Of a stretch of 23,649 nucleotides of DNA, positions 2,024-9,614 are shown piece after piece. A model generated the notes under the pieces. It was given only the letters and a program-made list of their open reading frames with translations, ran no database searches and was not told where the DNA came from. Every line of letters begins with the position of its first letter. The first letter of the stretch is position 1. The position numbers were made by a program, and so were the translations under genes. The DNA comes from a virus: positions 1 through 23,649 of the IMG/VR virus record IMGVR_UViG_3300042731_008445; one strand, written 5' to 3'.

Positions 2024-2224
2024 TTAACTCAATTTATTGCAAAAATTAATAAAATCTTTTTTTGATTGATATTCTAACATTTTTTCTTCTAAAATTTTTA
2101 ATCCTTCTTCAAAAATAATGTCTCCAGATTCCGTGTGTAATTTATCAATTTTTTCTAAAACTTCCTTTAGCATTGGGATACTTAGTGATTTTATTTTGGC
2201 TCTGAGTAACTCTAATTTATTCAT
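2024..2224 (-). CDS. hypothetical helical protein, 66 aa
   Basis: I place the start at MNKLELLRAK (ATG 2224-2222), directly after GGAGGAAGGGG. A longer reading to 2287 would run through the promoter at 2259-2287 and is rejected. The 66-residue product is predicted to be mostly amphipathic helix (LLRAKIKSLSIPMLKEVLEK, then ILEEKMLEYQSKKDF), with no signal peptide or membrane segment. It is unrecognised; small helical proteins with a private promoter in phages are often regulators or host-takeover factors, but nothing here proves that. The gene ends just before the second promoter cassette and could be a single-gene transcript or read into the 194-aa gene. Confidence 0.68.
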   Translation of the reverse strand: MNKLELLRAKIKSLSIPMLKEVLEKIDKLHTESGDIIFEEGLKILEEKMLEYQSKKDFINFCNKLS

Positions 2225-2306
2225 TTCCCCTTCCTCCTTTTTAATTTTGTTATAACATATTATACAAATTATACTGCAATTTGTCAAGTTCTATACCAAA
2301 AGAAAA
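2222..2306 (-). repeat. promoter/ribosome-site cassette, copy 1 of 2
   Basis: Nearly identical to 1939-2021. It begins in the T-rich tail of the terminator at 2298-2371 and ends at the ATG of the 66-aa gene. Shared elements in order are TTTTCTTTTGG, TTGACA, ACAAATT/AATTTGT inverted repeat, TATAAT and GGAGGAAGGGGAAATG. Confidence 0.8.
2259..2287 (-). promoter_or_regulatory. consensus sigma-70 promoter with inverted repeat (cassette copy 1)
   Basis: TTGACA at 2287-2282, 17-bp spacer, TATAAT at 2264-2259: a 12/12 match. It carries the same ACAAATT (2264-2270) and AATTTGT (2278-2284) inverted repeat as the second copy, so both promoters could share a repressor. It drives the 66-aa gene. Confidence 0.85.
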
Positions 2307-2371
2307 GCCTACCTAATACTAAGTTTTTTCAAACTACGGCATGTAGCCGACCTTCATATTAAGTAGGCTTT
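2298..2371 (-). terminator. intrinsic terminator ending the 2574-2298 RNA
   Basis: Arms 2304-2312 and 2363-2371 pair over 9 bp (AAAGCCTAC with GTAGGCTTT). After one mismatch, 2314-2318 pairs with 2357-2361 over 5 more bp. The minus-strand product ends in TTTTCTTTT at 2306-2298. The loop holds a further small hairpin, CGGC-TACAT-GCCG (2337-2349), so it is larger than a minimal terminator and may be part of the RNA fold. Confidence 0.75.
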
Positions 2372-2574
2372 GACTTTTCCGACTATAACTTGCCGGTGGG
2401 GTTAGGCAAATTAAAAACTGCTTGAGTTTTTGTCGACGGAAAAGAACCTTTCACATATAACCCCCGCTACGCAGTGATTATATATCTGCTGGGGATGTAT
2501 GTCTACAACCCCGCTACTTTTTCTACCTAGCTTTCGAGAAGACTAGGTACTGGAAGTGATAACTTCCAGGATAC
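2298..2574 (-). ncRNA. candidate structured phage RNA of about 275 nt, unknown class
   Basis: The 386-nt gap between the endolysin gene and the 66-aa gene has a near-perfect promoter, a GC-rich structured body and a terminator, with no credible ORF. Hairpins in minus-strand order are: CTGGAAG/CTTCCAG (2569-2563 with 2556-2550); TACCTAG/CTAGGTA (2549-2543 with 2530-2524); GGGG-T-TGTA/TACA-T-CCCC (2512-2491); GCAG/CTGC (2489-2471); CTTTTCCG/CGGAAAAG (2444-2437 with 2381-2374). The last encloses AAAAACT/AGTTTTT (2431-2413) and TTGCC/GGCAA (2409-2390), making a three-way junction. The terminator fold follows. Loop 2398-2404 can pair with 2458-2464 (pseudoknot). I checked it by eye against tmRNA and 6S features and found none. 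Function unknown; ends are estimated from the promoter and terminator. Confidence 0.75.
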
Positions 2575-2581
2575 AATATAT

Positions 2582-2610
2582 ATAATACTACATATAACAA
2601 TTTTTGTCAA
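2582..2610 (-). promoter_or_regulatory. sigma-70 promoter of the 275-nt RNA
   Basis: TTGACA at 2610-2605, 17-bp spacer and TATTAT at 2587-2582 match consensus at 11 of 12 positions. The -35 begins at the very next base after the endolysin stop codon (2611-2613). Predicted start of transcription is near 2574. Confidence 0.82.
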
Positions 2611-2982
2611 CTATTTTTTCTTCAACTGAAAATGCGGGTAGTCTTTAAATGTTTGCCAATTGCCTCCCCATTCTAAGACAATAAAAGATTGTTTTGCAAT
2701 TGTTAATACAACACCAGCCATTTGATAGAATCTATTGATATTATGCCAATCAATAGGATATGGCACTATATCAATTGCAGTCGATGGGGTTTTATTATGC
2801 CTACTATTAGGATATATTAATTTAGAAAACCCTTGTCGATAAGCTTTATTCTGTTCTTGTTCGCTTCTGTGCCCACACACAACACTAAAATTATAATACT
2901 TGATTGCTTTTTCCATAACAATTTGAATATCAAGATGGCAAGTAGCAAGTCTGGTCTGTGATAATTTACTAAATTTTGGCAT
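2611..2982 (-). CDS. endolysin, M15-family zinc peptidase (VanY/T5-endolysin type)
   Basis: This 123-residue protein has the zinc-ligand pattern of M15 peptidases: H62 and D71 in SRHNKTPSTAID, and H117 in the DYPHF motif, with D114 in the position of the catalytic acid of the T5 L-alanyl-D-glutamate endopeptidase. The early HRSEQEQNKAYRQGFSK segment is the substrate-side loop region of this family. Length fits single-domain phage endolysins. It would cut peptidoglycan stem peptides at the end of infection. No signal peptide is present, so release needs a holin, and candidates lie just upstream in the same operon. The start lies 2 nt after the stop of the XhlA-like gene, with only a weak ribosome site (GGT), suggesting coupling. 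Confidence 0.9.
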   Translation of the reverse strand: MPKFSKLSQTRLATCHLDIQIVMEKAIKYYNFSVVCGHRSEQEQNKAYRQGFSKLIYPNSRHNKTPSTAIDIVPYPIDWHNINRFYQMAGVVLTIAKQSFIVLEWGGNWQTFKDYPHFQLKKK

Positions 2983-9302: not shown

Positions 9303-9614
9303 TTAATTTAGTGGCGGCACATTATAAATATCTTCATATTTTTGATAATTTAAAAATGTTCTACTTGACCAATATATATCGAAATTCGCATCCCCAGTAA
9401 CATATCTATATTCGGTTACGCCAGTAACAGCCTCACTTGATCGCATTATATACCAATCAGTTTCGCCACGAGTGGACGTAAAGCCAAAATAACTTACTAC
9501 CGGATCACTTTCATTTATTTCTGCAATTCCAAATCCACTCAGGTATTGCCTTGCAAAAACGTACCCAGCAAACAATACTAATAACAATAAAGCAATAATC
9601 AAATACTTTTTCAT
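9303..9614 (-). CDS. small exported virion-like protein, 103 aa
   Basis: Residues 1-21 are a signal peptide or N-terminal anchor (MKKYLIIALLLLVLFAGYVF then Ala). The rest (YFGFTSTRGETDWYIMR, YRYVTGDANFDIYWSSRTFL, then YEDIYN) follows a pattern I know from small phage structural proteins: a Gly-Phe/Trp-Tyr-Ile-Met block, a Tyr-Arg-Tyr block, then Asn-Arg-like/Leu-x-Tyr. In those phages the protein has no export signal. The ribosome site is AGGAGGAAAGT. The gene is the first after the promoter at 9721-9749 and the terminator at 9632-9678, so its expression may depend on read-through. Function unknown. Confidence 0.75.
   Translation of the reverse strand: MKKYLIIALLLLVLFAGYVFARQYLSGFGIAEINESDPVVSYFGFTSTRGETDWYIMRSSEAVTGVTEYRYVTGDANFDIYWSSRTFLNYQKYEDIYNVPPLN

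Follow-up and report, generated by a model that had tools for sequence, protein, structure and literature searches.

What does a phage gain from a structured RNA that lies, with its own promoter and terminator, directly behind its endolysin gene? The question is raised by a stretch of 23,649 nucleotides of viral DNA (IMG/VR record IMGVR_UViG_3300042731_008445; hereafter, the window), for which an original prediction made from the letters alone had proposed such an RNA. The window belongs to a contractile-tail phage (encoding a tail sheath and a tape measure), the sheath of which has relatives at only about 28-36%, in Pseudomonadota. A second IMG/VR contig matches it without a difference over 7,982 nt and represents the same phage, both together covering about 34 kb. 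The early region of the phage includes a tRNA-Ser(GCT) gene (L139 4439-4533) and an RlaP-type (RNA repair) nucleotidyltransferase-like gene (L139 5207-6163). In L007 (7196-8922), a PAPS-reductase/DUF3440 gene is followed by a ParB-like gene, and a similar pair is found on a Bacillota MAG contig (L105; first gene, 68% identity).

A transcription unit behind the endolysin gene

The unit (2610-2298, minus strand) consists of a promoter, an RNA and a terminator (Table 1), and is followed by a 66-aa ORF. As originally described, the promoter matches the sigma-70 consensus at 11 of 12 positions, its -35 box starting at the base right after the endolysin stop codon TAG (2613-2611, minus strand). The GC content of the RNA (about 2575-2298) is 41%, vs 31% for the whole window, and no ORF of at least 60 aa was found within the unit, in agreement with the GC-richer, ORF-free stretch of about 275 nt reported before. 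Taken together with a folding z of about -6.7, the sequence lends good support to a stand-alone structured RNA with its own promoter and terminator.

Table 1. Predicted elements of the RNA unit and its surroundings, in window coordinates.
Feature	Position	Strand	Basis
Endolysin gene (M15 peptidase), directly upstream of RNA unit	2611..2982	-	PHROG 465 endolysin E=8.6e-40; Pfam Peptidase_M15_4
Sigma-70 type promoter TTGACA-17-TATTAT	2582..2610	-	11/12 consensus
Predicted stand-alone non-coding RNA, about 277 nt	2298..2575	-	folding z = -6.7
5' hairpins P1 (2569-2550), P2 (2549-2524), P3 (2514-2488)	2488..2569	-	folding
Possible internal promoter TAGACA-17-TATAAT, 22 nt 5' of conserved core	2477..2505	-	11/12 consensus; inferred
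Hairpin P4	2453..2485	-	folding; outside model R1 matches
Conserved core, DUF3800-associated RNA motif (AAAGGUUC, outer stem, two hairpins, UAG, GUC)	2369..2454	-	R3 model without window; covariation
AAAGGUUC box	2444..2451	-	alignments
Three-way junction: outer stem 2444-2437/2381-2374, hairpins 2430-2414 and 2413-2386	2374..2444	-	folding; compensatory pairs
Terminator stem with large apical domain and U-rich tail	2298..2371	-	inverted repeat I5; folding
Promoter and ribosome-binding-site cassette of next gene	2211..2306	-	direct repeat D1, second copy at 1928-2023

The possible internal promoter has counterparts in two related loci (L157 and L158), where a promoter-like site ends 3 nt before the conserved core, and a shorter transcript is therefore possible. 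The promoter-RBS cassette of the next gene is one of three near-identical copies (window 2287-2211 and 2004-1928, and L007 from 8942 onward); in one of them, a perfect 22-bp palindrome (TTTGTATAATTAATTATACAAA) covers the -10 box and is likely an operator.

The statement that gaps elsewhere in this phage measure only a few bases did not stand, since promoter-structure-terminator units also occupy two other intervals, 10766-10525 (242 nt) and 9745-9615 (131 nt). The first of these units (10759-10540, minus strand) lies between late genes. Its 12/12 promoter sits within an inverted repeat (TTGACATAT/ATATGTCAA), its fold resembles a three-way junction (z about -4 to -5), and a terminator and then a 67-aa ORF follow; it has no match in Rfam, nor did a single pattern scan reveal any relative. 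In the other, shorter unit (9749-9636, minus strand), a TTGAAA-17-TATAAT promoter is combined with a terminator stem of 19 bp, and the ORF at 9614 follows closely.

Predicted fold of the RNA

The folding energy of the RNA lies at z = -6.6 to -6.7 relative to dinucleotide shuffles, none of which folded equally well, and the 280-nt minus-strand segment that contains it has the lowest z among 168 segments from both strands of the window. The predicted fold comprises the hairpins P1-P4, the three-way junction and a terminator stem (2371-2304) followed by UUUUCUUUU, thus reproducing by folding the hairpins, junction and T-tailed stem that had been noticed before. The large apical domain of this stem explains why a simple terminator scanner missed it.

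Relatives identified with covariance models

Neither the Rfam models, at gathering and relaxed thresholds, nor BLASTN against phages, plasmids and E. coli gave a match to the window RNA. Gapped DNA patterns run on IMG/VR returned, besides the same phage, only chance-like matches (judged by eye or by model score), and no RNA was seen near those relatives of the endolysin, baseplate and PAPS-reductase genes that were inspected. A tRNA or tmRNA was rejected, as there was no ARAGORN or Rfam match, which agrees with the original view that the RNA is not a tmRNA.

Whole genomes were then searched with a covariance model built from a single sequence (R1; window 2519-2374); all searches together covered some 2,000 genomes plus a small number of collections. 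R1 gave two matches among 398 Pseudomonadota genomes (33.6 and 31.7 bits), which are close relatives of one another and were thus counted as one event; no match was obtained in Fusobacteriota, Bacillota or Bacteroidota. Both matches cover the three-way junction and have AAAGGUUC, CCG, ACAA, CUCA and AUAG in common with the window, with a GC-rich outer stem in place of its AU-rich one. Both are convergent with a DUF3800 gene and lie at its 3' end (Pfam PF12686, 39.6 bits; for the fragment in L155, 20.1 bits vs a cut-off of 21).

DUF3800 genes were then picked by protein similarity alone in two Roseobacter plasmids and a Gordonia phage. A second model, R2, built from the R1 matches, found the RNA beside these genes in the same place (Phaeobacter plasmid, Ruegeria plasmid and Gordonia phage Kenna), with E-values, rough as are those of all three custom models, of 6.6e-14, 6.9e-10 and 6.4e-10. 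R2 scores the window core at 75 bits and detects no second copy in the phage; it found no match in Bacillota, and 0.9 Mb of other viral DNA, scanned as a false-positive control, gave nothing with an E-value under 0.8. The RNA was absent from a more distant archaeal DUF3800 locus (L167). Finally, a model built from eight DUF3800-locus RNAs with the window left out (R3) recovers window positions 2454-2369 at 44.0 bits (rough E=1e-9 in 356 kb), and the window and its identical copy have the best R3 scores among 34 loci.

The core of the window RNA is thus homologous to small RNAs associated with DUF3800 genes, and by sequence and structure it belongs to a family related to Rfam DUF3800-IX (RF02968), with which it has in common the outer stem, two hairpins, a UAG-type junction and the linkage to DUF3800. 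The AAAGGUUC box sets the family apart. L159 (23.2 bits) and L156 (21.1 bits) match RF02968 weakly, both below its 36.8-bit cut-off; the phage RNA, in which the core is embedded in a longer RNA without a protein gene, does not match it even at E <=10. The original assignment to an unrecognized class hence stands as regards the Rfam cut-off of the nearest family, and gives way as regards the core (2454-2369).

Compared with the R2/R3 members, the phage RNA has the homologous core, the AAAGGUUC box, the junction and the GUC tail. However, these members match over about 72 nt and are convergent with DUF3800, whereas the phage RNA extends to about 277 nt, having four additional hairpins, a third hairpin of greater length and a terminator of its own. 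We found no relatives of hairpins P1-P3 and P4.

Covariation of the three-way junction

The covariation test that had been suggested for homologues gave a strong signal in the three-way junction. In an alignment of 10 distinct sequences, which was fitted to the model and thus leans to its structure, 94% of the cells pair, and 13 of the 21 base pairs change on both sides and are still paired, a result that 0 of 500 shuffles reach. Such both-side changes number 28, vs 6.8 +/- 2.1 in the shuffles, and the covariation score is 0.459, vs 0.192 in the shuffles and at most 0.151 when slid. It is the outer stem and the second stem that covary.

These data bear on whether the motif acts as DNA, either as a recombination site such as an integron attC or as a bidirectional terminator. 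It is true that the motif is located where genes end and that L162 has an integron-like integrase (identified by eye) close to it, and the complementary strand of the motif pairs almost as well as the RNA strand (207 vs 215 of 227 cells). Nevertheless, we consider an action as DNA highly improbable: the conserved U-G pair (in eight of the 10 sequences) favours the RNA strand, L157, L158 and the window each have a promoter-like site immediately upstream of it, and the related DUF3800-IX is classed by Rfam as an sRNA gene (RF02968). The attC element was also set aside by its architecture, one long hairpin vs a three-way junction.

Linkage to DUF3800 genes

Eight family members are convergent with a DUF3800 gene and lie no more than about 15 nt from its 3' end, the RNA directly abutting the gene in all eight pairs, and each RNA is presumed to be the partner of the adjoining DUF3800 protein. 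The AAAGGUUC box is identical in 8 of the 10 other members, L159 having AAACGUUC and L166 AAAGAUUC. In Gordonia phage Kenna, gp54 (L159 1881-2703; annotated as hypothetical) is DUF3800-like, with 25% identity to the L156 protein and a match to PADLOC DUF3800_VII; its RNA lies on the opposite strand with a 3-nt overlap with the gene end. In three DUF3800 loci (L155, L162 and L157), which represent two lineages, a methyltransferase gene is found on the other side of the RNA, and the integron-like integrase of L162 adjoins its DUF3800 gene.

Among 78 genomes from the order of one R1-matched genome, seven carry the RNA: five with an adjoining DUF3800 gene (truncated in L155), one with a 24-aa remnant and one with none. 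In L163 (1416-1572), a well-preserved RNA stands beside only this C-terminal remnant, and L166 carries a weaker copy with no DUF3800 found. These two cases show that a copy lacking an intact neighbouring DUF3800 gene can be a relic, and the phage RNA might likewise be the transcribed, functionless trace of a DUF3800 locus that the phage once acquired. We regard this as improbable, because the AAAGGUUC box, stable stems, a terminator and a promoter close to consensus are all still present in the phage copy, and the 34 kb of phage sequence yielded no DUF3800 remnant.

In the approximately 34 kb available for this incomplete phage, neither tblastn nor profile searches detected a DUF3800 gene, and Pfam found none among the phage proteins submitted to it. 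An adjoining convergent DUF3800 gene, which is an association and not part of the definition of the RNA, is thus lacking for the window RNA in this sequence. The rest of the genome may contain such a gene: the two contigs add up to only about 34 kb, and no terminase or portal was identified in them. A complete DUF3800-RNA system could then be split over the phage genome, the pair protecting the phage or lysogen from other phages, much as the adjoining pair of Kenna, which sits between the immunity repressor and the integrase, might do. This is an unlikely arrangement, however, as the RNA abuts DUF3800 in all eight known pairs, while its neighbours here are the endolysin gene and the 66-aa ORF.

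Context of the DUF3800 protein

The PADLOC model DUF3800_VII matches the DUF3800 proteins of the new loci. We take the name of this model to refer to type VII retrons. Neighbours of the DUF3800 genes include an HsdS subunit and a PtuA-like (Septu-like) ATPase in L165, a type III methyltransferase in L164 and a TIR protein in L155. These neighbours, the PADLOC model and the place of the Kenna pair suggest a role of DUF3800 in defence.

DUF3800 has been described as a nuclease with an RNase H fold that accompanies putative ncRNAs and occurs in some Cas12a2 (V-A2) and VI-F CRISPR loci (PMC10910872; PMC12669027). The literature searched yielded no published function for the DUF3800-associated RNAs, which have hitherto been known from comparative genomics. 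The occurrence of the nuclease in RNA-guided loci raises the idea that the phage RNA uses the host DUF3800 protein as a guide or cofactor would, for instance against competitors or host transcripts, and does not inhibit it; the added hairpins could carry a targeting sequence. We find this rather doubtful, since no guide segment is apparent in the family of about 72 nt and the RNA has no significant complementarity to its own phage (its best duplexes are no stronger than with shuffled RNA, so that an antisense role there was rejected).

A candidate RNA decoy of host DUF3800

Two phage RNAs offer precedents. The RNA anti-CRISPR Racr is a solitary phage-encoded RNA, a copy of the RNA component of a defence system of bacteria (PMC10651486), and the pseudo-ToxI of phage PhiTE mimics the RNA partner of a bacterial toxin (PMC3475682). 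In the phage studied here, the RNA is present and DUF3800 was not found, in a genome that is incomplete and with a defence role of DUF3800 that we infer. The likeness has limits: Racr mimics CRISPR repeats, whereas no such resemblance has been established for the window RNA, for which inhibition is proposed by analogy, and ToxI is a repeat array, whereas the window RNA is a single three-way junction with DUF3800 as its putative partner.

An RNA half without DUF3800 in 34 kb, taken with the analogy to pseudo-ToxI and Racr, makes occupation of a host DUF3800 nuclease the simplest reading. We give an even chance to the proposal that the RNA is an RNA-only mimic or decoy of the DUF3800-associated RNA that titrates this nuclease. 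The phage, which as far as known encodes the RNA alone, would express it from the near-consensus promoter and end it at its own terminator; the RNA would bind in trans to the DUF3800 protein of the host, by way of its AAAGGUUC box and three-way junction; and the bound protein, presumably active against phages, would be kept inactive or misassembled, as by an antitoxin mimic. The extra hairpins and the terminator stem would stabilise the RNA. Among the roles originally left open, anti-defence now leads, and packaging and lysis timing have gained no support.

Somewhat more tentatively, we propose that phages inhibit DUF3800 systems by RNA-only mimics fused to structured modules, here an RNA moron behind the endolysin gene; this would be the first counter-defence against DUF3800 and, after pseudo-ToxI and Racr, a third kind of mimicry by RNA. 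Mimics of this sort can escape BLAST and Rfam and yet be found by a single-sequence covariance model. An RNA kept seemingly without its protein, under its own promoter and terminator, would offer a direct test of whether DUF3800-RNA pairs act as defence or in a toxin-antitoxin-like manner, and the same phage RNA may serve as a test case for a new RNA-based counter-defence.
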